Source: Trichococcus alkaliphilus
GTDB taxonomy: Bacteria > Bacillota > Bacilli > Lactobacillales > Aerococcaceae
Direction: 5' to 3'
Assembly (NCBI RefSeq): GCF_003008695.1
Contig: NZ_PXZT01000006.1
Span: 1-64,000 of the forward strand
DNA length: 64,000 nucleotides
Positions 9,001 to 63,175 of the stretch are shown here, piece by piece (position 1 is the first letter of the stretch; every line of letters starts with the position of its first letter). Made by a program: the position numbers and the translations under genes. The notes beneath the pieces were generated by a model that saw only the letters and a program-made list of their open reading frames with translations, made no database searches and was not told where the DNA came from.

Positions 9001-9700
9001 TAATCGCGCATTCTCTAGTAACCAGTTAACGAGTGTGGATATTCCAACCAGCGTAACAAGCATTGGTTCGTATGCGTTTTATAATAACCAATTGACAAAT
9101 GTTACAATCCCGGAAGGTGTGACAAGTATTGGGGAATATGCATTCTATGCTAACCGGTTAACGAGTGTGGATATTCCGGACACTGTTACGACGATAGAAA
9201 ATAATGCATTTGAATATAATCAGTTGACGAGTGTAGAAATTTCTAATAGTGTGACCAGTATTGGCACCCAAGCATTTAACAGCAACCAACTGACAAGTGT
9301 TGTCATTCCGGAAGGGGTAACCAGTATCGGTAACAATGCATTCAGCAACAATCTGTTGAGTAGTGTAGAAATTCCGAGTACTGTTTCGATCATCGGAACG
9401 AGCGCATTCTACAATAATCAATTGACTGAAATTGTTATTCCGGATAGTGTAACGACTATTGGAAGTTATGCCTTCCAAGGCAACCAATTGACAAACGTAG
9501 TCATACCAGAAGGTGTGACATTCATAGGTAACGGTGCATTCAGTCAAAATCAGTTTTCTAGCATCACGATCGGTGAAGGTGTACAAGTTGGGGACAGCTT
9601 ATTAGGAACGAATAATAATTTCCGCTCTGCTTACACAACCGGCGGCGCTGGAACTTATACCGGCACCCAAGATGGAGAATGGATAAGAATACTCGTATAA
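14..9700 (+). CDS. giant secreted BspA-type LRR / G5 / F5/8C surface protein (3228 aa)
   Basis: Very large exported modular protein, probably an adhesin or glycan-binding surface protein. An N-terminal signal (KVKSQW motif then a hydrophobic core, probable cleavage near residues 35-36) resembles the extended KxYKxGKxW-type signals of Gram-positive secreted proteins. Then come an Ig-like stretch (about 110-225), three F5/8 type C (discoidin-like) domains (about 273-421, 428-577, 582-730), eight G5 domains (about 735-1359), a BIG2 domain (about 1360-1449), and a BspA-type LRR block of 22-residue units (about 1515-2022). A G5-BIG2-LRR set then recurs twice (LRR at about 2285-2409 and 2675-3192). 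LRR units follow the pattern NQLTSVVIPDSVTSIGxxAF. No LPXTG motif or other anchor is visible at the C-terminus. The start is fixed by AGGAGG at 1-6, seven bases before the ATG. A paralogue lies directly downstream. The ligand is unknown. Confidence 0.93.
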   Translation: MRKVLHKVKSQWVVLGVMGATVVSLGTANIQKVSAAETENTGTIETIEQTGSPLVPDEPITISTEEPNVEELPYATAEVADSNLEQGETSLTVLNSAVTTTPANEEIIAVETEDVTAPVIDVSSISLVKTTVTQGNTVNISVNITDDAGIASASLTYVSPITEKTKTIALYKNEISGLFEGAFTVSDSTELGVWKCSNIEAYDTQGNSVLLSGSDADLSRAVFTVNETPATTDTKSVTEATSVDMLQASAASEEVTALSAAVISPLEVQEPPVVNLATEGTVSTSVPFDNIAYATNAQTGNTAEYARGASGLQWVQVDLGASYDLREIKLWHYFGEGRIYKDVVAQLSNDATFSSGAVTVFNNDKDGSAGLGVGADSEYSETSAGKTIVFDTLNARYARFYSNGSTVNGANHYVEIEVYGVEPQTVSTTNLIPEGTLSSSVPFDNLTYAANTQADNTAEYARGTSGLQWVQADLGASYDINEINLWHYFGDGRSYHDVVVQLSNDATFSNGAVTIFNNDKDGSAGLGVGTDGEYSETSAGKKILFDTVTARYARFYSNGSTVNGANHYVEIEVFGAEPQAAPTVNLAPAGTITSSVPFDNSPLATDLQADSTTAYARGTSGLQWMQVDLGASYDLDAIKLWHYFGDGRSYHDVVVQLSDDATFASGTLTVFNNDKDGSSNLGVGTDREYSETSAGKTISFNTISARYARFYSNGSTVNGANHYVEIEVYGNASTKTEYKTEAVIQNVVHYTTIELLDNTLLTGETQLIQTGLDGYDTLTYEVIYTNGVETSRAEISRETTDVVNEIIRKGTKVVETKTETATENNVAYTIVEQQDDTIPAGERKIVQKGSNGYDTVSYAVTYTNGVETNRLETSRQTIQLVDEIVKVGTQVIETKSEIATENVVNAKTIEISDSTLPIGERKVIQSGRNGYDKVTYTVTYTNGSETSRTEVNRKTITVLNEVVKVGTQVVETKNQVVTENEVAYQTVEQLDNTLQRGKREVIQTGSNGFDKVTYAITYTNGLETGRIKLASVTTATVNEVVKVGTKVVEKKVETVEVTNGTAPEIIEITDSTLLAGERIVIQKGESGYDLITFEVIYTNGAETGRTEVNRETIASVNEFVKVGTKIVGTKMETVTENIVGYTTTVQDDDTLPTGETEYALVGANGYDTVTYEVTYINGLAASRKEISRVTTSPVNETIRVGTQVIENKTETATENELAFTTIELEDDTIPAGTREILQAGSTGYDVVTYDVTYTNGFPTNYRELSRETVASVNEIVKVGTQVIETVNEVTNENIIGYTTLVEEDVTLSADESVVFQTGANGFDAVTYEVTYTNGVETSRVEVSRQTTAPLNQIVKVGTKISVTNISVTSEDADSIILNGSTLQMAASISPDDATATEVTWSIEAGTGTATIDNTGLLTAMSAGTVTVKAIANDGSGIVGSQIIEIAAPISIIRYNGSNSDVVIPELLDGSLAQSSYGYINNYGYTYYSRYNEYDVLGELAYGNKGIVTSVDYYTFGWKQLTSVVIPDSVTSIGQGAFTGNQLTSVTIPISLISIGDNAFSQNQLTSIDIPNSVVSIGSSAFYGNQLNSVNLPDRLVSIGGNAFGNNQLTSIDIPNSVISIGESAFSINQLTSVTIPDSITSIQDGVFSNNQLVSVDIPDGVTSIGAYAFRYNQLVSVGIPDGVTSIGAYAFYNNQLVSMDMPDGVTNIGDYAFYENQLVSIDIPNGVASIGAGAFYNNHLISVNMPEGLTNIGESAFGSKYGTNQLTSVTIPSTVTKIGAYAFNNNRLTSIVIPNGVINIAPYAFNGNQLTSVIIPESVTSIGSYAFNGNRLTDVTIPSGVTSIGDFAFYGNQITKVAIPNSVKTIGKNAFYANGLKNVDIPDGVTSIGEYAFSSNQLTNVVIPTTIKIIGDFAFYANQLKEVFVPVGVTRIEDYAFGANRLTRVVIPGSVTSIGNGAFSGNQLTSISIPKSVTVIGNDAFSYNQFTSIVIPDSVKVIGSTAFMGNQVSCITLGAGVQIGENALTYDNKFREAYKIGGAGTYILTSNGEWKKVEVTKETETATENLVDYVTNIEEDLTLATDESTIYQVGVAGYDTVTYEVMYSEGTEISRVEVNRQTTSAVTQIIKVGKKVEVSNITVTAAGEKSVILNGDTLQMSAAVLPEDANMQSVIWSVENGTGAAAIDRNGLLTAASAGTVTVKATANDGSNVVGSKVIEIAVPLTVIKYNGSDSAVVIPEIFDGSQAEYKYGYIEGYGYTNYYTYISFDLLGALENGHKGIVTGIDNSAFGWKQLTSVVIPDSVTNIGKYAFNGNQLTSVVIPENVTSIGEYAFNSNQFIKVVIPDSVTSIGVSAFSNNQLTNIVIPKNVTAIGDNAFSYNQLKSIIIPDSVKTIGSIAFYGNQISCITLGGGVQIGETVLNYDNKFREVYNVGGAGTYILTQNGEWIKVEATIEAETVAENIVDYVTIIEEDLSLAADESTIYQAGIAGYDTVMYEVIYNEGAEIGRVEVSRQTTAPVKQIIKVGNRVEVTSITVTAAGEKSVILNGDTLQMSAAVLPEDANMLSVIWSIENGTGAATIDRDGLLTATNAGTVTVNATANDGSNFVGSKVIEIAVPLTVINYNGSDLDVVIPEIFDGSQVESTYGYIDGRGYTNYYTYNGFGLWGGLEYEHKGIVTSVDNSAFAWKQLTSIVIPDSVTSIGNAAFYYNQLTSVNLPVNLISIGENAFGSNQLTSLDIPDSVTSIGNSAFYGNQLTDVVIPSNVASIGSGVFSGNQLTSVTIADGITSIGDAAFSNNQLTNLTIPDSVTSIGGSSFSNNQLTSIIIPEGVTNIGDSAFSNNQLMSVTIPTSVTSIGNNAFQSNHLLSVVIPVGVTSIGSYAFYDNQLTIVEIPEGVTNIGSYAFGANPYWDATNGYGNQLTNVIIPSSVTNIGDNAFIRNKLTGIVIPEGVLTIGSYAFYNNQLTSVVIPTSATSIGDSAFEYNQLTSVVIPEGVTTIGNRAFSSNQLTSVDIPTSVTSIGSYAFYNNQLTNVTIPEGVTSIGEYAFYANRLTSVDIPDTVTTIENNAFEYNQLTSVEISNSVTSIGTQAFNSNQLTSVVIPEGVTSIGNNAFSNNLLSSVEIPSTVSIIGTSAFYNNQLTEIVIPDSVTTIGSYAFQGNQLTNVVIPEGVTFIGNGAFSQNQFSSITIGEGVQVGDSLLGTNNNFRSAYTTGGAGTYTGTQDGEWIRILV

Positions 9701-9826: not shown

Positions 9827-10020
9827 TATCCACGGTAGATAAGGTTTTGTGTTGCCATGATTGATATATGCAAAATTAATTAAAATTGTTTTGATCAATA
9901 ATTCCATTAAATTTTTTTAAAATATAAAAAATGACAAAAGTTTATATCTCTTTATATTAGGTAGTGATAAAATTATAGTTGTAAGTTGATTAAAAATACA
10001 TCAATGTTCTAGTTGCATTC
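9827..10020 (+). promoter_or_regulatory. AT-rich upstream region of the second LRR gene
   Basis: This gene-free stretch is strongly AT-rich and must hold the promoter of the gene at 10034. A GATAAAAT element near 9966-9973 is a possible -10, but I see no convincing -35. The Shine-Dalgarno and first codons downstream are nearly identical to those at the left edge of the window. Confidence 0.35.
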
Positions 10021-10033
10021 AGGAGGAGAAAAG

Positions 10034-13000
10034 ATGAGGAAAGTATTGCGCAAGGTCAAATCGCAATGGGTAGTGTTAGGGGTAATGGGTGCGACAGTTG
10101 TTTCATTAGGAACAGCGAATATTCAAAAAGTTTCGGCAGCAGAAACAGAAGGCGCAGGAACCATTGAAACTATTGAACAAACGGGAAATACAGTGGTTCC
10201 AGATGAGCCAATCACAATTTTAGAGGAAGAAACTATCACAGAAGAAGTTGTTGAAAGCAATCTGGACGAAGAGGAAACAACCACGCCTACAGGTGAAATC
10301 ATCGCAGTTGGGACGAAAGATCTTACCGCACCGGTGATTGAAGGTTCTTCTATCTTCACTGTCAATGAAACAACGGCAACAGCTGATACAAAATCAGTAA
10401 TGCAAGCAGCTTCTGTTGAGGTGCTTCAAGCGTCGGCTGCCTCACCAGAAGTAACCGGACTTTCTGCTGCAGTAGTAGCTGCGATTGAAGTGCAGGAATC
10501 ACCGGTTGTCAATCTGGCAGCTGAAGGAACTATCAGCACATCTGTCCCATTCGACAATATCGCGTATGCTACTAATACGCAGACCGGAAATACAGCCGAA
10601 TATGCGCGAGGCACATCAGGAGTGCAGTGGGTACAGGTGGATCTGGGAGCTTCCTATGATCTGAACGAAATCCAGTTGTGGCATTATTATGGTGACGGCA
10701 GAAGCTACCGCGATGTGATTGTGCAGCTTTCAAATGACGCAACCTTCGCAAACGGAGCTGTGACCGTCTTCAATAACGATACAAACGGCAGCGCAGGTTT
10801 GGGTGTGGGCACGGACAGTGAATACAGCGAAACGAGCGCCGGCAAGACGATTGCTTTCGATACCCTCAATGCCCGCTATGCCAGATTCTACTCCAACGGT
10901 AGCACGGTGAATGGCGCAAACCACTATGTGGAAATCGAAGTCTACGGCATGGAGCCACAAACCTTACCAACTACTAACCTAGTGCCGGGAGGCACGATTA
11001 GCAGTTCCGTATCATTTGACAACCTCCCCTACGCTGCTAATACGAAGGCGGATAATACAGCTGAATATGCGCGAGGGACTTCTGGACTGCAGTGGGTGCA
11101 GGCGGATTTGGGCGCTTACTATGAACTGAATGAAATCCAGTTATGGCACTACTTTGGTGATGGCAGAAGCTACCACGATGTGGTTGTGCAGCTTTCGGAT
11201 GACGCAACTTTCTCAAACGGTATCGTGACCGTCTTCAATAATGACAAGGATGGCAGCACCGGCTTAGGCTTGGGTACGGACAGCGAATACAGCGAAACGA
11301 GTACCGGGAAGAATATCCTCTTCGATACCGTCACTGCCCGTTACGCAAGATTTTACTCCAACGGTAGTACGGTAAACGGTGCAAACCACTATGTGGAAAT
11401 CGAAGTCTACGGTGTCGAACCGCAAACAGTTCCAACCGTAAACTTGGCGCCAGAAGGCACACTCAGCAGTTCCGTCCCATTCGACAACAGCGCATTCGCA
11501 ACTGATACGCAGGCAGATGATACAGCCGAATACGCGCGAAGCACCTCCGGTCTTCAGTGGATGCAAGTTGATCTGGGCGCTGCCTATGACCTGAATGAAA
11601 TCCAGTTGTGGCATTACTTTGGTGACGGCAGAAGCTACCGCGATGTGGTTGTACAGCTTTCGGATGACGCAACCTTCTCCAATGGAGCCGTGACCGTCTT
11701 CAACAATGACAAGGACGGCAGCGCCGGCTTGGGCGTGGGCACGGATAGCGAATACAGCGAAACCAGTGCCGGCAAGACGATTGTCTTTGATACCGTCACT
11801 GCCCGTTATGCAAGATTTTATTCCAACGGTAGCACGGTGAATGGCGCGAATCACTATGTGGAAATAGAAGTCTACGGCGTCGAACCGCAAAGAGTTCCCA
11901 CCGTAAACTTGGCGCCGGAAGGCACACTCAGCAGCTCCGTCCCATTCGACAACAGCGCATTCGTAACCGATAAGCTGGCGGACGATACAGCCGACTATGC
12001 GCGAGGGACGTCCGGACTACAGTGGATGCAAGTTGATTTGGGATCTTCCTATGACCTGAATGAAATCCAGTTGTGGCATTACTTTGGTGACGGCAGAAGC
12101 TACCGCGATGTGGTCGTGCAGCTTTCAAATGACGCAACCTTCGCAAACGGAGCTGTGACCGTCTTCAACAACGATACAAACGGCAGCGCCGGCTTGGGTG
12201 TGGGCACGGATAGCGAATACAAAGAAACGAGTGCTGGCAAGGCAATCGCTTTCGATACCGTCACTGCCCGCTACGCAAGATTTTACTCCAACGGTAGCAC
12301 GGTGAATGGCGCAAACCACTATGTCGAAATCGAAGTCTATGGTACCCAAGGAACAATGAAGAGCTTGACGGTAACAGCAACAGGAGATACTTCGATTGTG
12401 TTAAACGGTAAAACACTACAAATGAGTGCAACCGCAGCATTGGAAGATACAACTGAAGCATCCGTAATTTGGGCAGTGGAAGATGGCACTGGTACAGCAA
12501 CTATTGATGATTATGGCTTATTGACAGCTACTGCTTCTGGTAGAGTGACCGTTAAGGCAACAGCTAAAGACGGATCGGGTATTTTTGGGATTAAAGAAAT
12601 AACTGTGGCCGTGCCAGTAATGGTAACTGGTTACACAGGTACTGGCACGGATTTAGTAATTCCTGAAATGATAATGGGAACTCAAAAAAGTGAATCTGGA
12701 AATTACGATGGATTTAATATTGCAGAGAGTTTAGATTCCGATGAGGTAGGGATAGTTACGGGCATAGATTCTAGAGCGTTTTTTGATAAGCAACTAACTA
12801 GCATAGTAATCCCGAACAGTGTGATAACCATTGGTTCTTATGCACTTGGAGTTAATCAATTAACTAGCGTAGTGATTCCAGACAAAGTGATAAACATTGG
12901 AGATGGTGCATTTGCTGGTAACCAACTAATCAGTGTAGTAATCCCGAACAGCGTTATAAGTATTGGGAGGGTTGCATTTGCAAGTAACCAATTAGCTAGC

Positions 13001-13807
13001 GTACTAATCCCGGATAGCGTGACAAGCATTGGCGAAGCCGCATTCATCAGCAACCAACTGACCAGCATAGTGATTTCAGAAGGTATGATAGGATTTGGAA
13101 AGTATGCATTTGCAAATAATCAACTTACAAGTGTTGTGATTTCAGAAGGCGTTAAATGGATTTCTGAGTCGATGTTTGCAAATAACCAACTAACTAGTAT
13201 TGTGATTCCGGGAAGCGTGGAATGGATTGGAAATGCAGCATTTGAAGGTAACAAACTAACCAGCGTAGTGATTTCAGAAGGTATGATAGGAATCATGGAT
13301 GATGCATTTAGAAATAACCAACTAACTAGCATAGTGATCCCGGACAGCGTGACAATCATCGGACAGAGTGCATTTGCAGTAAACCAACTAACTAGTGTAG
13401 TAATCCCGAATGGCGTGACAAGCATGGGCATGGCTGCATTCAGTGACAACCAACTAACGAGCGTAACGATCTCAGACGGTGTGACAAGTATCATTTCATA
13501 TTTGTTTTATAATAACCAATTAACAAGTGTCACGATCCCGGACGGTGTGATAAGTATTGGAGAAAGTGCATTTGAAGGTAACCAACTGACTAGTGTAGTA
13601 ATCCCTGACAGTGTGACAAGCATTGAGTCTTGTGCGTTTAGTAATAATCAAATATCTAGCATTACAATCGGTGAGGGTGTAGATGTAGATGTTAATGTAC
13701 TTGGTATGTTTTTAATGAGTAGTAATAATTTCCACTCTGCTTATGCAAACGGGGGGGCAGGTACGTATACTGAAACCCAAGATGGAAAATGGATAAAAAT
13801 ATCCTAA
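10034..13807 (+). CDS. secreted F5/8C-BIG2-BspA LRR protein, paralogue of the preceding gene (1257 aa)
   Basis: Smaller tandem paralogue of the giant protein with a nearly identical signal peptide. Domain order is signal, a short acidic linker, four F5/8C discoidin-like domains (about 158-307, 312-462, 468-615, 622-770), one BIG2 domain (about 774-862), and one block of 22-residue BspA-type LRRs (about 917-1215) with a short C-terminal cap ending in a GAGTYTETQDGKW-like segment. It has no G5 domains. An in-frame ATG seven codons upstream (10013) is rejected because AGGAGG at 10021-10026 sits seven bases before the ATG at 10034, exactly as in the paralogue. The F5/8C modules are highly alike within and between the two genes, which points to duplication and recombination. 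No cell-wall sorting signal is visible. A carbohydrate- or host-binding surface role is inferred from domain content. Confidence 0.92.
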   Translation: MRKVLRKVKSQWVVLGVMGATVVSLGTANIQKVSAAETEGAGTIETIEQTGNTVVPDEPITILEEETITEEVVESNLDEEETTTPTGEIIAVGTKDLTAPVIEGSSIFTVNETTATADTKSVMQAASVEVLQASAASPEVTGLSAAVVAAIEVQESPVVNLAAEGTISTSVPFDNIAYATNTQTGNTAEYARGTSGVQWVQVDLGASYDLNEIQLWHYYGDGRSYRDVIVQLSNDATFANGAVTVFNNDTNGSAGLGVGTDSEYSETSAGKTIAFDTLNARYARFYSNGSTVNGANHYVEIEVYGMEPQTLPTTNLVPGGTISSSVSFDNLPYAANTKADNTAEYARGTSGLQWVQADLGAYYELNEIQLWHYFGDGRSYHDVVVQLSDDATFSNGIVTVFNNDKDGSTGLGLGTDSEYSETSTGKNILFDTVTARYARFYSNGSTVNGANHYVEIEVYGVEPQTVPTVNLAPEGTLSSSVPFDNSAFATDTQADDTAEYARSTSGLQWMQVDLGAAYDLNEIQLWHYFGDGRSYRDVVVQLSDDATFSNGAVTVFNNDKDGSAGLGVGTDSEYSETSAGKTIVFDTVTARYARFYSNGSTVNGANHYVEIEVYGVEPQRVPTVNLAPEGTLSSSVPFDNSAFVTDKLADDTADYARGTSGLQWMQVDLGSSYDLNEIQLWHYFGDGRSYRDVVVQLSNDATFANGAVTVFNNDTNGSAGLGVGTDSEYKETSAGKAIAFDTVTARYARFYSNGSTVNGANHYVEIEVYGTQGTMKSLTVTATGDTSIVLNGKTLQMSATAALEDTTEASVIWAVEDGTGTATIDDYGLLTATASGRVTVKATAKDGSGIFGIKEITVAVPVMVTGYTGTGTDLVIPEMIMGTQKSESGNYDGFNIAESLDSDEVGIVTGIDSRAFFDKQLTSIVIPNSVITIGSYALGVNQLTSVVIPDKVINIGDGAFAGNQLISVVIPNSVISIGRVAFASNQLASVLIPDSVTSIGEAAFISNQLTSIVISEGMIGFGKYAFANNQLTSVVISEGVKWISESMFANNQLTSIVIPGSVEWIGNAAFEGNKLTSVVISEGMIGIMDDAFRNNQLTSIVIPDSVTIIGQSAFAVNQLTSVVIPNGVTSMGMAAFSDNQLTSVTISDGVTSIISYLFYNNQLTSVTIPDGVISIGESAFEGNQLTSVVIPDSVTSIESCAFSNNQISSITIGEGVDVDVNVLGMFLMSSNNFHSAYANGGAGTYTETQDGKWIKIS

Positions 13808-20825: not shown

Positions 20826-21030
20826 CGGTTACGGCGTCGCGACCTCCGACGAAAGTATCGCTCGCCGGAGTAGGGGTTTCCGGTAATAGTTCTTCTCCTG
20901 TGAGCGAATGTTGGCCGGAGGTGAGGGCTAGGCAGCTCGCTCTTCTCCGGGGAGCGGGTCCTCGTCGGAGTTGACGAACCCTCATGAAAGCCACCTCCGG
21001 CGCACGTACCCTCGGTCGGAGATACGGAAA
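20826..21030 (-). repeat. multi-hairpin GC-rich repeat module, minus orientation
   Basis: Read on the minus strand this contains the same succession of CTCCGRCGAG...CGGAG hairpins and spacers found at 22.7, 24.7 and 26.0 kb, including CTCCGGCCAACATTCGCTC and TTACCGGAA. It fills most of the 412-nt gap between the small membrane protein and pepS and is the clearest inverted copy in the window. Confidence 0.75.
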
Positions 21031-22659: not shown

Positions 22660-23060
22660 GCGCCGGCGAGGAGATTATAGACCCTCGCTCCTCCGATGAG
22701 AGTTGGCTTCGCCGGATCTGACACGGCCCCACATACGCTTCTCCGACGAGACCTCGCTCGACGGAGGTCAGCCTGCGTTCCCACTATCAGCTCCGGCCAA
22801 CACTCTCCCGCAGGAGGAGAGCAGATTACCGGAACCGCAACTCCGTTGAGAAGGGCGCTCACCGGAGGGAAGCACCAGCTCCTATGAGGGTTGTCCTTGC
22901 CGGACCAGGCGAATGTACGATATTGCCACCTCCGACGAGCCCTCGTTCGTCGGAGGACAGCCGCCGCACCTACACCCAGCTCCGGCCAACACTCTCCCGC
23001 AGGAGGAGAGCAGATTACCGGAACCGCAACTCCGTTGAGAAGGGCGCTCACCGGAGGAGA
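22660..23060 (+). repeat. multi-hairpin GC-rich repeat array, about two 190-nt units
   Basis: Two consecutive higher-order units, each with four hairpins built on CTCCGNNGAG...CNCGGAGG. The block CAGCTCCGGCCAACACTCTCC...GAGAAGGGCGCTCACCGGAGG occurs almost identically in both (about 22790-22870 and 22979-23056, offset about 190). It lies within the 750-nt gap between pepS and the coiled-coil gene. Confidence 0.85.
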
Positions 23061-24654: not shown

Positions 24655-24860
24655 GGTGTTCCACGGTCGCGCAGCCCCGACGAGCGCGGCCTTCGCCGGA
24701 GCTGGTGTGAGGTGGATGGCTTGTCCTCCGATTAGGATCGGTTCGTCGGAGGACAGGGTGCGAATCCGTGCCAGCTCCGGCCAACATTCGCTCGCAGGAG
24801 AAGGGCCGGTTACCGGCACCGCACCTCCGGCGAAAGGATACCTCAACGGAAGTCGTGGTA
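24655..24860 (+). repeat. multi-hairpin GC-rich repeat module
   Basis: One higher-order unit between the divergent flavodoxin and NERD genes: hairpins at about 24678-24702, 24715-24760, 24778-24805 and 24822-24852, with the same spacer words seen elsewhere (CAGCTCCGGCCAACATTCGCTCG, GTTACCGGCACCGCACC). Because it lies between two divergent starts it would be upstream of both genes. The remaining gap holds the NERD gene ribosome binding site AGAAGGAGG. Confidence 0.82.
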
Positions 24861-25904: not shown

Positions 25905-26635
25905 GGCAGGACACTGATCTCCGATTAGGGTCTGCTTCGCCTGAGCTGGATCGAGGTGGGGATTCGTACCTCCTGCGAGCCCTCGTTCGTCGGAGGACAG
26001 AGTGCGATTACGCGCCCAGCTCCGGCTAGGTTCCGGTAACAGGAGGACAGCAGATTGTTGGAACCGCACCTCCGTTGAAAAAGGCGCTCACCGGAGGAAG
26101 GCACCAGCTCCTGTTAGGGTTTGATTCGCCGGAGCAGGCCCGAGTGCGATTACGCGCCCAGCTCCGGCTAGGTTCCAGTAACAGGAGGACAGTAGATTGT
26201 TGGAACCGCACCTCCGTTGAGAAAGGCGCTCACCGGAGGAAGGCACCAGCTCCTGTTAGGGTTTGTTTCGCCGGAGGTGGGCGAGTGCGAAATTCGTACC
26301 TCCGACGAGCCCTTGTTCGTCGGAGGACAGCATCCGAATCCTCGCTCAGCTCCGGCTGGGTTCCGGTAACAGGAGGAAGATGAATACCGAAGAGCCTTCC
26401 TCCGTTGAGAAGGGCGTTCATCGGAGGAAAGCACCAGTTCCGATGAGGGGTGTCTTCGCCGGAGGTGGGGCGAGCGCAAATCTCTCACCTCCGGGGAGCC
26501 CTCGCTCGACGGAGGACAGCATCCGCCCGCTCGCTCAGCTCCGGCCAGAGTCCGGTAACAGGAGAACAGCATATCGCCGGAACCCCACCTCCTACGAGGG
26601 GGCTTTTCGTCGGAGGTGGGCGGTCGCCCTTGGGG
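25905..26635 (+). repeat. large multi-hairpin GC-rich repeat array, about four units
   Basis: Tandem higher-order units begin near 25914, 26101, 26243 and 26431. The spacings are about 187, 142 and 188 nt; the short unit lacks one hairpin (the CTCCGACGAGCC...TTCGTCGGAGG element). Each full unit carries four imperfect hairpins separated by conserved 15-25 nt spacers, with GCACCAGCTCC/TTCC at the unit start. Nothing coding is supported in this 920-nt gap. Confidence 0.9.
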
Positions 26636-50130: not shown

Positions 50131-51125
50131 AAGATGTTTTAGTTATTGCAGAGGCTGGAGTAAATCATAACGGCAGCATTGAATTAGCAAAAAAATTAAT
50201 TAAAGAGGCTTCGATAGCTGGAGCAGATGTAGTTAAGTTTCAAACTTTTAAAGCAGAAACCTTAGTATCTAAATCAGCAAAAAAAGCCAATTATCAAAAA
50301 GCCTCTACAGATGTGGAAGAGAGTCAATTTGATATGCTGAAGAAGCTAGAATTAGATTATGCAATACATGAAGAATTGATGCAGTATTCTAACGAACAGG
50401 GCATTAAGTTCTTATCTTCAGCATTCGATCTTGAAAGCATAGATCTATTAAATGAGTTAGGCATTGATATCTTTAAGATACCTTCTGGTGAAATCACCAA
50501 TTTGCCTTACTTACGTAAAATAGCTCAAACTGGAAAACAAATAATTTTATCAACTGGTATGAGTACAATATCTGATATTGAAGCTGCTTTGGACGTATTA
50601 CGCCAAAATGGTGCCACAGATATTATTGTATTGCACTGTAATACTGAATATCCTACTCCTATGGAGGATGTAAATCTTCTGGCGATGAATACCATCCAAA
50701 ATACTTTTAAAGTCAGAGTCGGTTATTCAGATCACACCGTAGGAATTGAAGTACCAATAGCAGCTGTTGCATTGGGTGCAGAAGTGATTGAAAAACATTT
50801 TACCTTGGATAAAACGATGGAAGGCCCCGATCATAAGGCAAGTTTAGAGCCTAAAGAATTGAAAGCGATGGTAGATGCTATTCGAAATATCCAAGCAGCT
50901 TTGGGAGACGGTTTGAAAAGTCCTTCTGAATCTGAAATAAAAAATATGCCGATTGCGCGTAAAAGTTTGGTCGCCAAAGCAAACATACAAACAGGAGAAA
51001 TGTTTTCAGAGGATAATTTGACAATTAAGCGCCCTGGAACCGGATTGTCTCCTATGCTCTGGGATGACATAATTGGATCTATCGCCAGAAAAGATTATGA
51101 AGTAGATGAAGTGATAACATTATGA
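50127..51125 (+). CDS. legI: legionaminic acid synthase (NeuB family)
   Basis: A 332-residue enzyme condensing a 6-carbon amino sugar with phosphoenolpyruvate to make the nonulosonic acid. The TIM barrel (about 1-270) has VIAEAGVNHNGSIELAKKLI, VVKFQTFKAETLVSKSAKKA, LSTGMSTISDIEAAL and HCNTEYPTP. The C-terminal SAF/antifreeze-like domain (about 275-332) contains RKSLVAKANIQTGEMF. It overlaps legH by four bases. The family also includes sialate and pseudaminate synthases; flanking legB/legC/ptmE favour legionaminate. Confidence 0.93.
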   Translation: MKDVLVIAEAGVNHNGSIELAKKLIKEASIAGADVVKFQTFKAETLVSKSAKKANYQKASTDVEESQFDMLKKLELDYAIHEELMQYSNEQGIKFLSSAFDLESIDLLNELGIDIFKIPSGEITNLPYLRKIAQTGKQIILSTGMSTISDIEAALDVLRQNGATDIIVLHCNTEYPTPMEDVNLLAMNTIQNTFKVRVGYSDHTVGIEVPIAAVALGAEVIEKHFTLDKTMEGPDHKASLEPKELKAMVDAIRNIQAALGDGLKSPSESEIKNMPIARKSLVAKANIQTGEMFSEDNLTIKRPGTGLSPMLWDDIIGSIARKDYEVDEVITL

Positions 51126-52282
51126 AAAAAATATGCGTAGTTACAGGTACACGAGCTGAATATGGACTGCTTACTCCATTAATCAATAAGATTCAGGATG
51201 ACAGTGATTTAGTTTTACAATTGGTAGTAACTGGTATGCACATGTCACCTGAATTTGGAATGACAGTTAATTCGATTGAAAATGATGGATATGAAATAGC
51301 AGAACGCATAGAAATACTGCTCAGTTCAGACTCTCCTGTTGGAATCAGTAAGTCAATGGGATTAGCATTAATCAGTTTTTCGGAAGCATTTGAACGATTG
51401 CAACCAGATATGGTCGTTGTTTTAGGGGACAGATCTGAAATTTTTGCTGTTGCTGCAGCAGCTTCTGTTGCAAGAATTCCAATTGCTCATCTGCACGGCG
51501 GAGAAACTACTGAAGGTGCTGTGGATGAAGCATTTCGACATAGTATCACGAAACTAAGTTGGCTCCATTTCACAAGTACGGAAGATTATCGTAAAAGAGT
51601 CATTCAACTTGGTGAGAATCCAGAGCGCGTATTTAATGTAGGAGCAATAGGTATTGAAAATATAGTCCAGAGCCCATTAATGACTAAAAATGAATTAGAA
51701 CAGAGTCTGAATGTTGAATTGAAACATCCTTTACTACTTGTTACCTTCCATCCAGTAACTTTGGAGAATAAAACGTCATCAACACAATTTCAGGAATTAC
51801 TAGGTGCTTTAGATCAATACACTGAGGGAACGATTATTTTTACAAAAGCTAACTCTGATACCGACGGACGTGTTATCAATCACATGATTGACGAATATGT
51901 CAAAACACATGAAAATAATTGTTTAGCATACACTTCTATGGGCCAGAAGCGTTATTTGAGTGCTATGAAAATTGCTGATGCTGTTGTCGGAAATTCATCC
52001 AGTGGAATTATTGAGGCGCCGTCTTTCAATATTCCAACGGTAAATATTGGGGATCGACAAAAAGGAAGAATACAAGCTGTTTCAGTGATTAATTGTGAAC
52101 CAAATAGAATTGATATTGAAAAAAGTTTGTCAGAAGCATTGTCACTGAGCTTCCAAAGTAAAATACAAGGCTTCAAAAACCCATATGGTGAAGGAAATGT
52201 AAGCTCAAAAATATTAAAAGAGATTAAAAGTGAACTGATGAAAGATATTTCATTGAAGAAAAAATTTTATGACATAGGATGA
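51122..52282 (+). CDS. legG: NDP-sugar hydrolysing 2-epimerase LegG (NeuC family)
   Basis: A 386-residue hydrolysing 2-epimerase. The start VVTGTRAEYGLLTPLINKI, the segment VVVLGDRSEIFAVAAAASVA, HLHGGETTEGAVDEAFRHSI and VGNSSSGIIEAPSFNIPTVN are family hallmarks. It releases the nucleotide and inverts C2 to give the free substrate for the synthase. It overlaps legI by four bases. Confidence 0.92.
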   Translation: MKKICVVTGTRAEYGLLTPLINKIQDDSDLVLQLVVTGMHMSPEFGMTVNSIENDGYEIAERIEILLSSDSPVGISKSMGLALISFSEAFERLQPDMVVVLGDRSEIFAVAAAASVARIPIAHLHGGETTEGAVDEAFRHSITKLSWLHFTSTEDYRKRVIQLGENPERVFNVGAIGIENIVQSPLMTKNELEQSLNVELKHPLLLVTFHPVTLENKTSSTQFQELLGALDQYTEGTIIFTKANSDTDGRVINHMIDEYVKTHENNCLAYTSMGQKRYLSAMKIADAVVGNSSSGIIEAPSFNIPTVNIGDRQKGRIQAVSVINCEPNRIDIEKSLSEALSLSFQSKIQGFKNPYGEGNVSSKILKEIKSELMKDISLKKKFYDIG

Positions 52283-52294
52283 TGGTGAAATAAA

Positions 52295-52990
52295 ATGTAT
52301 AAGGATAATACCTTTATTGCAATTATACCTGCTAGAAGCGGATCCAAAGGCCTAGTTGATAAAAATATAAAAATAATGGCAGACAAGCACCTTATTGGAT
52401 ACACTATTGAAGCTGCTGTAAAATCAGGGGTTTTCGATAAAATTATTGTTTCTACGGATTCTGAAGAATATGCTGCTATTTCAAGAGAATATGGTGCGGA
52501 ATGCCCCTATTTAAGGCCAAAACAGATTTCAAAAGATGAAAGTTCTACTGCCGATGTTATTGAGTATATACTTCAAAAAGAACTTGAATCGGGAAATAAT
52601 TATGATTATTTCTGTTTGCTACAACCAACATCTCCACTTAGGGATGAAGTTAACATTATCGAGGCTGCAGATTTATTAATTGATAAGGATGCCAAAAGTG
52701 TTATATCCGTGTGTGAAGTAGAGCACTCACCAGCACTAATGAATTGTCTACCGGAATCTCTAAATATGAATAATTTCATAAGTGTTCAAAATAATAAACG
52801 ACGTCAGGAATTAGGAAAGTACTATAGGTTGAATGGTGCTATTTATATTTGTAATTCGAAGTTTTTTTTAGAGGAAAAGAATTTTTATGGCACAGACAGT
52901 TATGCATATATCATGGACAAAAAGAACTCAGTCGATATAGATGATATATATGATTTTAAGTATGCCGAGATGCTGATTAAAGAAATCTGA
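52295..52990 (+). CDS. legF: CMP-legionaminic acid synthetase (NeuA family)
   Basis: A 231-residue cytidylyltransferase activating the nonulosonic acid with CTP. The N-terminal IIPARSGSKGLVDKNIKIM motif is the CTP-binding P-loop, KIIVSTDSEEYAAISREYG and LLQPTSPLRDE complete the site. It is the last gene of the operon, 12 nt after legG, and is followed by a terminator. Confidence 0.92.
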   Translation: MYKDNTFIAIIPARSGSKGLVDKNIKIMADKHLIGYTIEAAVKSGVFDKIIVSTDSEEYAAISREYGAECPYLRPKQISKDESSTADVIEYILQKELESGNNYDYFCLLQPTSPLRDEVNIIEAADLLIDKDAKSVISVCEVEHSPALMNCLPESLNMNNFISVQNNKRRQELGKYYRLNGAIYICNSKFFLEEKNFYGTDSYAYIMDKKNSVDIDDIYDFKYAEMLIKEI

Positions 52991-53017
52991 GATAAATCAT
53001 CTAAGTTAGAAATTAAA

Positions 53018-53058
53018 AACCAGAATAAGTTATTGTCTATTACTTGTTCTGGTTTCTA
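53018..53058 (+). terminator. terminator of the polysaccharide operon
   Basis: Stem AACCAGAATAAGT/ACTTGTTCTGGTT with one mismatch, followed by TCT. The T tract is short, so it may be leaky. Confidence 0.65.
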
Positions 53059-53132
53059 ACTAGAAGTAAGCGCTCAATTAATTTGGTTATCAACTGAAAA
53101 ATTTACTATATTTCGAAGGAGTAATCGTTCAT

Positions 53133-54059
53133 ATGCAGAAAGTCAGAAAAGCAGTCATTCCAGCTGCCGGTTTCGGCACGCGTTTTTTACCGGCTACGAA
53201 GGCCATGGCGAAAGAAATGTTGCCGATCGTCGATAAGCCGACGATTCAATTCATCGTCGAAGAAGCCATCGCATCTGGCATCGAAGAAATCCTGATTGTC
53301 ACAGGCAAAAGCAAGCGCGCCATCGAGGACCATTTCGACTCCAATGTTGAGTTGGAGATGAACTTGCGTGAAAAAGGCAAACAGGAGCTATTGGCTTTGG
53401 TTCAGGAGTCGACTGGTGTCCGCATCCACTTTGTGCGCCAAGCATATCCGTTGGGACTGGGCCATGCTGTCCTGCAGGCGAAAGCCTTTGTAGGTGATGA
53501 GCCATTTGTAGTCATGCTTGGTGATGACCTGATGGAGGATGAAGTGCCATTGGCGAAACAACTGATCAACGCCTATGAACGCACACATGCATCGAATATC
53601 GCAGTTATGGAGGTACCTCAGGAAGAAACATCCAAGTACGGCATCATCGACATCGCTTCCGAATTGGAACCAGGCTTGTACAATGTCAGCCGTTTCGTTG
53701 AGAAACCGAAAGCGGAAGAAGCGCCAAGCAACTTGGCAATCATCGGCCGTTATCTGTTGACGCCGGAAATCTTCGAAATCTTGGAGAACCAGACTCCTGG
53801 AGCAGGCGGAGAGATCCAACTAACCGATGCCATCGATACCCTGAACCAAACGCAACGCGTCTTCGCGAAACGTTTCGAGGGAACCCGCTACGACGTCGGC
53901 GACAAGTTCGGCTTCATGACCACCAGCATCAACTACGGTCTAACCCATCCGGAAGTTAAAGACAAACTGAAGGACTTTATTATTGCGCTTGGGAAAGAGT
54001 TGTCTGGGGAGAGCGAAAATGATAGCACAGTGGCTGGGACAACCGTTTCAGTAATGTAG
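53133..54059 (+). CDS. galU: UTP-glucose-1-phosphate uridylyltransferase
   Basis: A 308-residue enzyme making UDP-glucose from UTP and glucose-1-phosphate. It has [56 protein letters not shown] and [20 protein letters not shown], all typical of GalU. Codon use and GC are those of the chromosomal flank rather than of the AT-rich locus, which marks the right edge of the acquired segment. UDP-glucose would feed wall polysaccharide and glycolipid synthesis. AAGGAG lies about twelve bases upstream of the ATG. Confidence 0.96.
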
Positions 54060-56501: not shown

Positions 56502-57317
56502 GTGGAATTAACCGTAACAGAGTTACTGTCCTATGGAACCGTCAGAATCGAATGTACGGATATAAACAATCAAGAAACGGCGGGGACAGGATATGTAGTT
56601 GAATTCGAAAAGGATGGAGATACAAATATCTCCATCACGGCGCTCATCACCAATAAGAGTGTGATCAAAGGTGCCGAAAAAGGCAGGCTTGTTTTTACGC
56701 AAGAAACTGAAGATGGTGCGCCTGATGATAGAAATCACCATAAGGTATCGTTAAGCCAATTCGAAAAAAAGTGGGTGATGCATCCGGATCCCGCTGTCGA
56801 TTTGTGCGCGTTGCCGATAGACAAGCTTGTCCAGAAGGCAGAAGCCAAGGATATCCAGCTGTTTTATCCGGTGATTACGATGGACTTAATTCCAACGGAG
56901 GAACAACTCGATGAATTGGATGCAATGGAGGCAATTATCACGGCAGGTTATCCTGATGGACTATGGGACACGGTCAACAACAGACCCGTTTTAAGAAGGG
57001 GTGTGACAGCTACGCACCCTATAAAGGATTACAATGGCAAGAAAGAATTCTTGATAGATGCTCCCACCATGCTAGGCACGAGTGGTTCACCGGTTTTAAT
57101 TATCGATGAGAATGGTTATATCGATCGCGACGGAAATTACTATCCGGATGAAGACCGCATCCTGTTCTTGGGCACGCTCTCTGCAGGTCCGCATGCAGCA
57201 CCGGAAGACCTACCGAAGAAGAGTGATATTACCGCGACTGTTTCACCACACCTGCCGAGGAACCTCGGACTGGTGATCAAATCCAGCCGTATTTTGGAAC
57301 TGGCAGCATTATTTTGA
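56502..57317 (+). CDS. trypsin-like protein with apparent loss of the catalytic His
   Basis: A 271-residue protein resembling cytosolic trypsin-like peptidase domains. The serine site MLGTSGSPVLI (near 190-200) and the aspartate region HPDPAVDLCALPIDK (about 84-98) fit. At the expected histidine block the sequence is ALITNKSVIKG, where relatives usually read TNKHVI, so the catalytic His seems to be Ser. This predicts an inactive or altered protease, perhaps a binding or sensing protein. The start is GTG 56502 because AAAAGGAG lies seven bases upstream; the upstream frame to 56391 has no such site. No signal peptide is visible. It follows the three small paralogues. Confidence 0.75.
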   Translation: MELTVTELLSYGTVRIECTDINNQETAGTGYVVEFEKDGDTNISITALITNKSVIKGAEKGRLVFTQETEDGAPDDRNHHKVSLSQFEKKWVMHPDPAVDLCALPIDKLVQKAEAKDIQLFYPVITMDLIPTEEQLDELDAMEAIITAGYPDGLWDTVNNRPVLRRGVTATHPIKDYNGKKEFLIDAPTMLGTSGSPVLIIDENGYIDRDGNYYPDEDRILFLGTLSAGPHAAPEDLPKKSDITATVSPHLPRNLGLVIKSSRILELAALF

Positions 57318-57431
57318 AAAAATGGTTGATGTAAAAGAGAAGGGTGATCGCCTGTCGATGGCGGTCGGTCTTCTCTTTTTTTGATCTCAACACACGGCGC
57401 TCGGTCTTCTCTTTTTTTGATCTCAACACAC

Positions 57432-58045
57432 GGCGCTCGGGAGCCAGCAAGCTCCGATGGAGCGAGCTCTCATCGGAAGAAAGCTATGCGCCAGATAGTT
57501 CAACTCCGGAGAGTGAATGCTGACCGGAGGAGGGGGCGTTGTGGGTGGCCGAACTCCTGCGAAGCCGACTTGGTCGGAGGTGATCATCATTTGGGATGTT
57601 CTCCTCCGGCGGAAGTAAGGTTCACCGGAGGAAATCACAGCTCCGATGGAGCGAGCCCTCATCGGAAGACCGTCTTGCGTCGGCTAACTCAACTCCGGAG
57701 AGCGAATGCTGGCCGGAGGAGGATAAGTTGCGGGCGGTTGTAATCCTGCGAAGCGGCGGTGGTCGGAGGTAACCGTCATTTGGGATGTTCTCTTCCGGCG
57801 GAAATATGGTTCACCGGAGGAAATCACAGCTCCGATGAGACGGGCCCTCATCGGAAGACAGCCTTGCGTCGGCTAGCTCAACTCCGGGGAGCGAATGCTG
57901 ACCGGAGTTGAGAGCAGTGCGGGCGTCTGTACTCCTGCGAAGATGCGGTGATCGGAGGTGATCATCATTTGGGATGTTCTCCTCCGGCGGGAAGGCTCCT
58001 GCCCGGAGGAAAACGTCAGCTCCGATGAGGCGGGCCCTCATTGAA
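57432..58045 (+). repeat. 189-bp tandem array of four-hairpin units
   Basis: The word GCTCCGATG starts at 57451, 57640, 57829 and 58019, giving periods of 189, 189 and 190. Each unit holds four imperfect hairpins: GCTCCGATG...CATCGGAAG, AACTCCGGAGAG...CCGGAGG, TCCTGCGAAG...GGTCGGAGGT and TCCTCCGGCGGAA...CACCGGAGGAAA. The spacer ATCATCATTTGGGATGTTCTC is shared. Three full copies and part of a fourth are present. A separate 39-bp direct duplication (TTCTCTTTTTTTGATCTC...GCGCTCGG) precedes it near 57371-57439. Confidence 0.93.
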
Positions 58046-58440
58046 TATTGCAAATTTATAGAGCCGCCTTTGCGGATGATGGAGCCGGCGAGTGCATGAA
58101 GGAGAGCCACCAAGTGCGAACTTGGTTACCGTTCATTGAAAAATGCTAGTGCTAAACTGAATTGAACAGTTTCCAATGATTAAGATTGAACATTTTCGCC
58201 AAAGTTGAATATTGCAAATGGATAGAGCCACTTGTGCAGAGAAATGTACCAGCAAATGCAAAGCTTTTTACCACTCTCGGCAAAGAGGTTACCAGTTGGT
58301 GTATCTAAGCCACCAGTTGTACCAATCGTATAAAGTGGTAACATCAGTGGCACTCGCTGGTAATTCTCGTGTCATTGACTGGTAAGTATCCTGTCACTGA
58401 TGGTAACTGGCCTGGCGGGGGATGTTGCAGATAACAGAGC
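58042..58440 (+). repeat. direct repeats of another type
   Basis: TTGAATATTGCAAATTTATAGAGCC near 58042 recurs as TTGAATATTGCAAATGGATAGAGCC near 58205. Between about 58290 and 58410 the short words CTGGTAA, CACTGATGGTAA and ACCAGTTG recur. No gene is apparent in this stretch. Confidence 0.55.
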
Positions 58441-58469
58441 CTCGTATCTGGATGAAGGGACACTCTCCT

Positions 58470-58616
58470 CGATTACTCCACCTCCGATGAGAATGTTTTG
58501 CCCGGAGCTAGTCGATTTCCGCACTCCTGAAGTACGGTGAGGCCATGCTTACCGGAGGTAGGTATCTTTTCGGATCTCCAGCTCCGGCGAAAGAGCTGCT
58601 CGTCGGAGCTGAGCTA
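58470..58616 (+). repeat. GC-rich multi-hairpin repeat, short copy
   Basis: Three hairpins of the same family: CACCTCCGATGAGAATG...CCCGGAGC, CACTCCTGAAGTACGG...ACCGGAGGT and AGCTCCGGCGAAAGAG...CGTCGGAGC. They sit immediately at the stop of the broken EIIA gene. Confidence 0.7.
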
Positions 58617-58905
58617 TTAGGACACAACAGCCAGGTTCTCTATTACCGCCATGAAATGCTCGAAGGAAGGCTCACTCAGAATACGTTCCTGTTTCTCAGC
58701 CTGATCCATCAATTCCAGCAATAAGTCATAAATATATTCTGTATTCGCATAGTCTTGCTTCGTGATCGAGAACAGGAAGACGAATTTCACAAGGTGGCCG
58801 TCTCCCCAATCGATGCCGTTCGGAATCACAGAGAACAGGGACAACCGACTTGAATGCCATCAGCGACATCGGATGCGGGATGGCCAGGATATTGTTGAGA
58901 TTGGG
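58617..58905 (-). pseudogene. broken PTS EIIA (fructose/mannitol type) gene remnant
   Basis: The minus strand first encodes LAIPHPMSLMAFKSVV (containing the His of EIIA proteins) up to about 58845. After a frameshift it continues as SLFSVIPNGIDWGDG, then KFVFLFSITKQDY and the normal C-terminal helix region. The N-terminal half upstream of about 58905 is missing. The natural stop is intact. It is therefore the decayed C-terminal part of an EIIA domain, perhaps from a PTS-regulated transcription activator. The 250 nt to the next gene hold nothing recognisable apart from AT-rich sequence. Confidence 0.75.
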
Positions 58906-61579: not shown

Positions 61580-61604
61580 CATTTAAATAAATATGAGGTG
61601 CCCC

Positions 61605-62681
61605 ATGAATAAAAAATACCTTGCATTTTACGTTTCTTCCCACGGCTTCGGCCATATGACCCGCTGCCTGGCAATCATCGAGGAACTTTTGGAAACAACG
61701 GATAATATGATTTATCTGGCGAGTGGCGCCTACCAGAACAGCTTTGCCAGAACCTACCTCGCCCGTTTCGGTGACCGCGTCGTTTACAAGGACATCCGCA
61801 CCGAAGTCGGCCTGGTCAACAGGGAGAACAGTCTGCAGGTCGACATCCCGCGCCTGGAGCACGAGCTGACCGATTTCATGGCCGGCTGGGATACGGCCGT
61901 AGTGGAGGAAGTCGTCTATCTTCAGCATATACCCGTTGCCTGCGTCGTCAGCGACATCAGCGTCATCGGCATCCAAGTGGGGGAACAATTAGGTGTGCGC
62001 AACATCGGCATCGCCAACTTCACTTGGTGCGAACAGTACGAGCACCTCGGCCTTTCCGAAATCCTTATCGCCCGATTCAGGGAAGTCTACGCCAAACTCG
62101 ACCTCCTAATCGAATACGACCTGATGCTGCCGATCCATGACCTGGATGTCCCCAGAAAGAAGATCGGCTTCCTGTCCCGCAAATTCGATCCGGACCGTAT
62201 CGCAGCCATCAAAGAACGATACGGCCCAAGCATCTTCATAACCTGCGGCAAATCCGCCAATCTGGATAATATCCAGATTCACAACTACGACGGTACCATC
62301 TTCGCCACCAGTGGCATCGACATAACCAGCACCGCCAAAATCGTCCAACTCCCCGTCGAAACCTTCGACACCCACAACTACCTCGCCGCCAGCGACATCA
62401 TCATCGCCAAAGCCGGTTGGGGCACCATCTCCGAAGCACTACTTTCCAAAAGTAACCTCGTGCTGATCGAAAGGGAAGGCGTGCTGGAAGATACCGAAAA
62501 CATCAATGAACTGAAACGCAGAGGAGTCGCAGTCTCAATCAAAGAAACCAACTTAGCGCGTATTGATATGCATGCGATCAGCGATCTGAGCGCATCGAAT
62601 ATCGTCAGAGAGAATTTGAATGCTTATAAAAATGCCGTCGAAGAGGTTGTCAGCATTCTGAAATCAAATAGTCACGCCTAA
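61605..62681 (+). CDS. GT-B-fold glycosyltransferase-like protein
   Basis: A 358-residue protein. The start YLAFYVSSHGFGHMTRCLAI is the glycine-rich acceptor loop of MurG- and UGT-like transferases, and AGWGTISEALLSKSNLVLIE is the donor-binding region of the C-terminal domain. It is likely a cytosolic nucleotide-sugar-dependent transferase, but substrates are unknown. The start is ATG 61605, because GAGGTG at 61596-61601 serves it; the ATG at 61593 overlaps that site. GC content returns to the level of the chromosomal flank here. Confidence 0.82.
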   Translation: MNKKYLAFYVSSHGFGHMTRCLAIIEELLETTDNMIYLASGAYQNSFARTYLARFGDRVVYKDIRTEVGLVNRENSLQVDIPRLEHELTDFMAGWDTAVVEEVVYLQHIPVACVVSDISVIGIQVGEQLGVRNIGIANFTWCEQYEHLGLSEILIARFREVYAKLDLLIEYDLMLPIHDLDVPRKKIGFLSRKFDPDRIAAIKERYGPSIFITCGKSANLDNIQIHNYDGTIFATSGIDITSTAKIVQLPVETFDTHNYLAASDIIIAKAGWGTISEALLSKSNLVLIEREGVLEDTENINELKRRGVAVSIKETNLARIDMHAISDLSASNIVRENLNAYKNAVEEVVSILKSNSHA

Positions 62682-62689
62682 GGTGTGAC

Positions 62690-62830
62690 TACCTCCGACA
62701 AGGCATCCCTAACAGGAGAAGAACATACATCCAGCTACACCAACTCCGATGAGAAACCTTTCATCGGAGCTGGAAACATTTTATATTGGCTCACCTTCGA
62801 CAAACACATTCCTCATCGGAGGTGAGAATC
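62690..62830 (+). repeat. GC-rich multi-hairpin repeat, degenerate copy
   Basis: Contains ACTCCGATGAG...TTCATCGGAGC (62752-62782) and CACCTTCGAC...CATCGGAGGTG, with an ACAGGAGAAGAAC spacer resembling those at 20.9 and 24.8 kb. It lies directly after the glycosyltransferase stop and could act as its terminator region. Confidence 0.65.
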
Positions 62831-63004: not shown

Positions 63005-63175
63005 GCTGGAGGTGGGCTTTCTCCGACTAGGACGGTGCTCGCCGGAGCACAGAGTGCCCTTGCTTTTAATCCACTCAACTCCGACGAGCCGATCCTCATC
63101 GGAGCTAAGATCCCGCAGGAATGCACGAACTCCGGCGAAGCCGTCGCTCACCGGAGGAGAGGGGGCTTCGCCGAA
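63005..63175 (+). repeat. GC-rich multi-hairpin repeat copy
   Basis: Hairpins GGTGGGCTTTCTCCGACTAGGACGG..., AACTCCGACGAGCC...CATCGGAGC and AACTCCGGCGAAGCC...CACCGGAGGAG follow one another with the usual spacing, ending about 35 nt before the EAL gene stop. Confidence 0.72.

Follow-up and report, generated by a model that had tools for sequence, protein, structure and literature searches.

The tandem array at 57450-58041 of the window (i.e. the whole 64-kb stretch of Trichococcus alkaliphilus DNA that was analysed) is best explained, with a confidence that comes close to even, as a tandem amplification within a Trichococcus family of binding-site chains, which are extragenic and BIME-like, lie between transcription units and would be bound by a putative protein. 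The chains have a strict architecture, range over the whole genus, are biased towards the ends of genes and are conserved in place between species, and the half-sites of their palindromes vary largely independently of each other. From these features we infer that a protein, presumably a dimer, binds the chains, and that they have a topological or insulating role. The family thus constitutes an abundant, genus-wide class of intergenic element that is apparently undescribed in the open-access literature searched.

Structure of the array and of the chains

Tandem Repeats Finder (TRF) assigns the array a period of 189, 3.1 copies and 82% matches. It is made up of three complete 179-bp units and a truncated fourth, and each complete unit contains four imperfect palindromes (27, 26, 26 and 27 nt) separated by spacers of 25, 24 and 24 nt, with joints of 10, 10 and 11 nt between units (Table 1). 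A preliminary description had proposed a 189-bp tandem array of four-hairpin units, which TRF and the palindromes confirm, the fourth unit being truncated.

Table 1 Palindrome elements in the 64-kb window
Feature	Position	Strand	Remarks
Single four-palindrome element	20844..21021	+	
Two tandem four-palindrome units, reverse orientation	22691..23056	-	
Degenerate four-palindrome element	24675..24851	-	Three clear palindromes
Further tandem array of this family, in reverse orientation	25919..26615	-	TRF periods 142 and 189
Complete four-palindrome unit 1 of the array	57452..57630	+	Palindromes 57452-57478, 57504-57529, 57554-57579, 57604-57630
Complete four-palindrome unit 2 of the array	57641..57819	+	
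Complete four-palindrome unit 3 of the array	57830..58008	+	
Truncated fourth copy of the array	58020..58041	+	Ends inside first palindrome (~58041); from sequence and TRF array end
Degenerate partial element 3' of the array	58441..58608	+	Clear palindromes at 58482 and 58582
Two-palindrome element	62693..62769	.	3' of glycosyltransferase-like gene 61593-62681
Three-palindrome element	63021..63156	.	Adjoins EAL-domain gene

Several other features of the window were recorded alongside. Just 5' of the array (57360-57440) TRF finds a 36-bp unit (GGCGCTCGGTCTTCTCTTTTTTTGATCTCAACACAC) repeated 2.2 times at 97%, which includes a T run. The short direct repeat TTGAATATTGCAAAT..ATAGAGCC at 58041-58067, present again about 164 bp further (58205-58231), starts at the break point of the fourth array copy, and this break may be the mark of another element. 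The two long ORFs at 14-9700 (3228 aa) and 10013-13807 (1264 aa) contain internal tandem repeats of 66 bp and 465 bp, and their 22-residue period presumably points to leucine-rich surface proteins. A few kb upstream of the array, genes for a UDP-GlcNAc 2-epimerase, a cytidylyltransferase and a nucleotidyl transferase (Pfam) stand in a row at 51122-54059, in what is apparently a sugar-nucleotide cluster.

In the stretches around pattern matches in the T. alkaliphilus genome, 73 loci with at least two palindromes were found, holding 244 palindromes in total; chains of fewer than two were left out, as were, in later analyses, the window chains 5' of position 8000, which lie within a long coding ORF, locus L121 (coding) and the stretch of L128 shared with the window. 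The palindromes repeat at a distance of 50-51 bp. Of the 178 gaps between them, 108 measure exactly 24 nt, 149 fall within 23-25 nt and 11 are joints of 10/11 nt; weak palindromes were let in by their spacing in this count, and a scan without the spacing rule gives the same steps of 50-52. The four-palindrome unit, from which the tandem arrays of the window are built, is not the sole form of the family, as 38 of the 73 loci consist of a clean chain of three palindromes, 126-129 bp long. Chains commonly have three or four palindromes and are amplified in places to 12 or more (one run, in the complete genome G001, has 29 pattern matches), with periods elsewhere that differ from those of the window (~169 bp at L019 and L023). 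The end modules are often 27-nt palindromes and the inner ones mostly 26-nt palindromes in variable number. The spacers are directional, and neighbouring spacers agree in 42 of the 54 cases scored.

Range of the family

The loose pattern CTCCGN{15,28}CGGAG has 198 matches per strand in the T. alkaliphilus genome against 28 for the same pattern read backward, which is not a product of chance. The same pattern gives 56-521 matches per strand in 13 Trichococcus genomes (backward control 9-55) and 0-15 in 47 genomes from elsewhere in the family and order (control 0-68). The strict pattern CTCCGRYGAN{8,9}TCRYCGGAG has 19-232 matches in 11 of 11 Trichococcus genomes and a single match in one of 384 genomes from the rest of the order, and none at all when read backward. 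A covariance model built from the four-palindrome unit likewise has matches in all 13 Trichococcus genomes; at most 150 candidates were scored per genome in these searches, so that the counts are lower bounds. Within the searches done, the family is confined to Trichococcus. The expectation of a repeat family with many intergenic copies, to be recovered from related genomes with a covariance model, was therefore borne out, both by the 13 genomes and by the 73 loci sampled in T. alkaliphilus itself.

Ten named loci hold a relative of a neighbouring gene; nine of them are filed under Trichococcus and one under Sedimentibacter. On the latter contig (MUZD01000009.1, deposited as Sedimentibacter sp. 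SX930) there are chains of the Trichococcus type, one of them with five palindromes, together with a relative of the window protein that is 81% identical; the assembly is probably mislabelled or mixed. The strict pattern occurs once in each of 30 viral contigs, none of which has two palindromes less than 110 bp apart. In Rfam, only a tRNA of the window reaches its gathering threshold, and the best sub-threshold match over 57300-58700 has 13.7 bits (E 0.98) at a cut-off of 48; the preliminary description, which knew of no named element with such an architecture, is borne out by this search over the array.

Half-sites of the palindromes

The halves of the palindromes share the core consensus CTCCK-RYGAR and vary independently of each other. 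The half-site reads roughly S-W-N-CTCC-K-R-Y-G-A-R, i.e. the dyad comprises the 26/27-bp palindrome and a few bases on each side. Within the 139 palindromes of 26 nt, the pair 8-19 is GC in 73, GG in 25, CC in 18 and CG in 4, and the pair 7-20 is CG in 49, CA in 31, TG in 25 and TA in 11. Two bases out from the core, A or T occupies both sides in 134 of these 139 palindromes and in 98 of the 100 of 27 nt, and AA, TT, AT and TA are all common.

The same picture is obtained from the comparison with the genome of another species (G005). Of the 304 comparisons at core positions 1-4 (76 half-sites), 16 show a change, compared to 158 of 608 for the spacer positions 5 to 12 out (Fisher 7e-16). Changes at the W position were A-T exchanges in 10 of 13 cases, compared to 21 of 158 in the spacers (p 2e-6), while those at position 5 were G-T exchanges in 11 of 12 cases, compared to 29 of 158 (p 4e-7). 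An A-T exchange preserves the features that a protein can contact in the minor groove, and a major-groove acceptor is common to G and T; exchanges limited to base classes in this way can mark a DNA site. Since the halves vary independently within base classes (W, K, R, Y), it is likely that recognition of double-stranded DNA is conserved, rather than base pairing. Judged by its sequence, the variation is most likely that of a dyad-symmetric DNA site read by a symmetric protein and not that of an RNA stem, and the substitution pattern suggests that a putative symmetric (dimeric) protein would recognise the pairs of half-sites in double-stranded DNA.

Position relative to genes

In an initial test 33 of 74 loci fell inside ORFs, mostly short ORFs running across the element. 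The gaps between genes were therefore compared after removal of ORFs shorter than 250 aa that contain a palindrome, after which 17 of 193 palindromes (G005) and 7 of 166 (T. alkaliphilus) still lie in ORFs. Gaps between convergent genes are enriched among those with palindromes, both in T. alkaliphilus (20/57 versus 15/90 of the gaps without, p 0.016) and in G005 (20/54 versus 99/535, p 0.002), and divergent gaps are depleted (2/57 versus 28/90, p 2e-5, and 7/54 versus 136/535, p 0.045, respectively). Terminator-like hairpins facing the element occur in 29 of the 72 flanks on the left and 24 of the 72 on the right, compared to 87 of 1060 random windows, which is 4 to 5 times the background frequency; those facing away (16 and 14 of 72 flanks) also exceed the background, by two to three times. 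The direction of the spacers is unrelated to that of the genes (10 to 9). The chains thus favour the ends of genes, where terminator-like hairpins often precede them, and avoid divergent promoters, this bias being an enrichment and not a property of every element. In analogy to the BIMEs of enterobacteria, the chains most likely act as protein-loading platforms between transcription units, where they would absorb supercoils or insulate neighbours and would be held in place by selection.

Conservation in place and possible mobility

A position behind genes could also reflect mere tolerance of insertions, in which case the chains would be selfish, non-autonomous mobile repeats (MITE- or REP-like) whose palindromes form the ends for a transposase acting in trans. 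This explanation is possible, if somewhat unlikely. The copies are indeed dispersed, and those of the array type at different T. alkaliphilus loci are 70-89% alike over at least 130 bp, a similarity of up to 89% that implies some spread or conversion between loci. In addition, a bias to convergent gaps is found in BOX and RUP as well, where it is interpreted as parasitic (PMC3049150).

Where the flanks of T. alkaliphilus loci could be found in G005, at least one palindrome has been kept at 36 of 42 loci, a fraction that is biased because the G005 stretches were mostly picked near G005 elements; of the stretches picked by position, four of six are occupied. The scan finds the same number of palindromes in both genomes at 14 of the 42 loci, and no palindrome in G005 at six, which would be compatible with mobility. 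None of three such palindrome-less sites shows a clean target duplication, though: two are replaced or poorly alignable, and the cleanest (L119:7338) is a contraction, G005 being shorter by 153 bp (~three units), with a remaining spacer whose sequence looks like the two outer spacers fused. Against mobile repeats also stands that the cores are kept in place across species while the spacers, although still alignable, diverge, and that the array has no match among plasmids and phages. Mobilisation by a RAYT was considered separately and is not supported, as the Y1 transposase family PF01797 has no match in G008 (a genome that is 98% complete and has 376 loose-pattern matches), and 27 of the 30 Y1 loci retrieved are flanked by no palindrome (within ~1.5 kb or less).

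Distribution over the chromosome

The best-scoring covariance-model matches leave ~600 kb empty in G005 (2540 to 217 kb) and ~980 kb in G001 (396 to 1376 kb). With dnaA at 1.647 Mb (G005) and 2.399 Mb (G001), and the skew switching at about 0.15-0.2 Mb and 0.70-0.80 Mb, respectively, the palindrome-poor domains of both complete genomes include the skew switch opposite dnaA. Besides the best matches, the gaps rest on 21 sampled stretches: 12 of the 13 from G005 and 7 of the 8 from G001 have no palindrome, and the remaining one in each genome holds a single palindrome. Such a chromosome-wide distribution with a gap in the terminus domain recalls that of Noc and SlmA sites. The chains could, in a variant that we regard as quite doubtful, serve a genus-specific chromosome addressing, for which a putative dimeric protein would load onto the 50-bp-register chains after transcription units but hardly in the terminus domain. 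In G005 nearly the whole gap falls to one side of the terminus, whereas in G001 it extends to either side, so that younger gene content in this region may account for it rather than the terminus.

Stem pairing

The strong folding of the palindromes raises the question whether it is the hairpin itself that functions, as RNA or as single-stranded DNA (i.e. as a stabiliser of mRNA 3' ends, a terminator or a cruciform). The third complete unit (57830-58008) folds better than 200 of 200 dinucleotide shuffles (z -4.8 as RNA and -5.3 as DNA). The preliminary description had seen compensatory-looking differences between the stems of the copies, an interpretation that largely fails: across 239 T. alkaliphilus palindromes, covariation at most stem pairs stays at the level of shuffled columns, with no excess of pairing at pairs 7 to 10 (|z| ≤1.2). 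The pair of copies that had been quoted (GATGGAGC.. versus GATGAGAC..) differs by A-T to G-T and by G-C to A-C in the register of the other units, both of which are one-sided changes, and the folding program keeps the stem of the differing copy only through a one-base shift and a bulged T. Likewise, in a 13-sequence alignment one pair changed on both sides compared to 3.8 expected from shuffles, and the covariation score was 0.107 compared to 0.114. A palindrome may evidently fold well and seem compensatory on inspection, and still fail a covariation test.

The orthologues give the same result. In 38 palindromes compared between T. alkaliphilus and G005, the inner pairs 5-10 show 22 one-sided changes from pair to mismatch and 13 from mismatch to pair, 11 changes between Watson-Crick and G-T, and two both-sided compensatory changes. 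One-sided changes between pair and mismatch (35) thus far outnumber compensatory ones (2), which is the kind of outcome that the earlier proposal had named as evidence against itself. These counts concern one species pair and 23 matched loci hand-picked for comparable length, where 38 of 64 palindromes of 26/27 nt passed the filters for no gaps and 50% identity. The palindromes were partly detected by their complementarity, which biases the set towards pairing, and the lack of covariation is therefore conservative.

Some pairs do covary. Pair 6 does so in the whole set (z 2.6 and 3.6 in the two length classes), pair 1 to a small extent (paired z 2.8, 26 nt), and within 43 distinct four-palindrome units, which include tandem and orthologous copies and are hence not independent, pairs 6, 7 and 8 of palindrome A (z 4.2, 4.2 and 4.7) and pair 11 of palindromes C and D (z 2.3 and 2.5). 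There is also a subset of palindromes with extended outer stems: all five outer bases per side are paired in 10 of 139 (1.8 in shuffles) and 5 of 100 (1.1), and all three outer pairs in 19 of 139 (10.6) and 12 of 100 (8.0), despite which single outer positions do not covary. On the gene-sense strand G-T exceeds A-C (71 versus 47, p 0.034), an excess that is weak and shrinks to 36 versus 28 (p 0.38) without the large arrays. Pairing across the spacers, i.e. of a 3' arm with the next 5' arm, was examined as well and rejected: position 1 alone exceeds expectation (z 2.4), position 6 falls short of it (z -3.7), and in the spacer the second position and its mirror are anti-complementary (z -4.6).

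Maintenance of the stems by compensatory change thus largely fails, with pair 6 and palindrome A as the exceptions. The subset with paired flanks and the sense-strand excess are what a functional hairpin would predict, but the independence of the two sides at the W position, the location of many elements behind terminator-like hairpins and an orientation unrelated to the genes are not, and a hairpin function is accordingly very doubtful.

Hardly probable at all is that the palindromes are core sites of a site-specific recombinase whose exchanges add or remove units: their arms and centres fit the 10-bp arms and 6/7-bp centre of tyrosine-recombinase core sites, and the length at orthologous sites sometimes differs by one or three units (77 versus 127 bp at L085:4129, and L119:7338), but the L133 site differs by 39, 93, 254 and 711 bp (155 versus 194, 143 versus 236, 151 versus 405 and 143 versus 854 bp between matching anchors), the centres vary highly between neighbouring palindromes although tyrosine recombinases need matching ones, and unequal recombination or slippage explains the change in copy number equally well.

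Comparison with known systems

For the preferred reading, that of binding-site chains between transcription units, DNA gyrase would be a candidate reader only, suggested by the place of the chains and by the length of the three-palindrome chain (126-129 bp), which matches that of the E. coli gyrase motif. This motif spans 130 bp with a 36-bp centre, and is degenerate with a 10.75-bp GC phasing (PMC6379681). The Trichococcus arrays resemble strong gyrase sites and BIME-2 in lying between transcription units, and BIME-2 in being palindromic arrays at the 3' ends of these units (as an enrichment). Unlike the gyrase motif, their core is sequence-specific. As to a helical phasing that could suggest wrapping, the mean profile has a 10.0-bp peak above control windows, which is not significant (p 0.25) once the null model retains the 50-bp periodicity. 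The strict architecture, together with the conservation in place, makes the putative reader protein directly searchable by pull-down.

REP and BIME elements are located near gene ends. They are 20-40 bp palindromic repeats of high copy number, often in dimers or in clusters 20-100 bp apart (PMC3733652). The Trichococcus palindromes are similarly small, abundant and clustered, but they differ from REPs in having no GTAG or CGTC foot (the flanking triplets being mixed, e.g. CAG, CTC, CAA, CAC and GTC), in forming chains of 3-4 with spacers of 24±1 nt, in having no tie to a Y1 (RAYT-type) transposase, and in half-sites that vary independently in a family confined, in our searches, to Trichococcus. 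The BOX elements of Streptococcus pneumoniae are described as modular, with end modules around variable inner ones, and enriched between convergent genes (PMC3049150). By that description the Trichococcus chains are alike in their modularity and their enrichment in convergent gaps, and set apart by the fact that all their modules are variants of one palindrome. With CRISPR arrays they share palindromic repeats and near-constant spacers, but their repeats differ from one another where those of CRISPR are nearly identical, their spacers can be aligned between species, and the chains are dispersed over 73 loci. The family therefore lies outside the tagged REPs, the compared Rfam families and CRISPR, and resembles BIMEs and BOX in its place and modularity.
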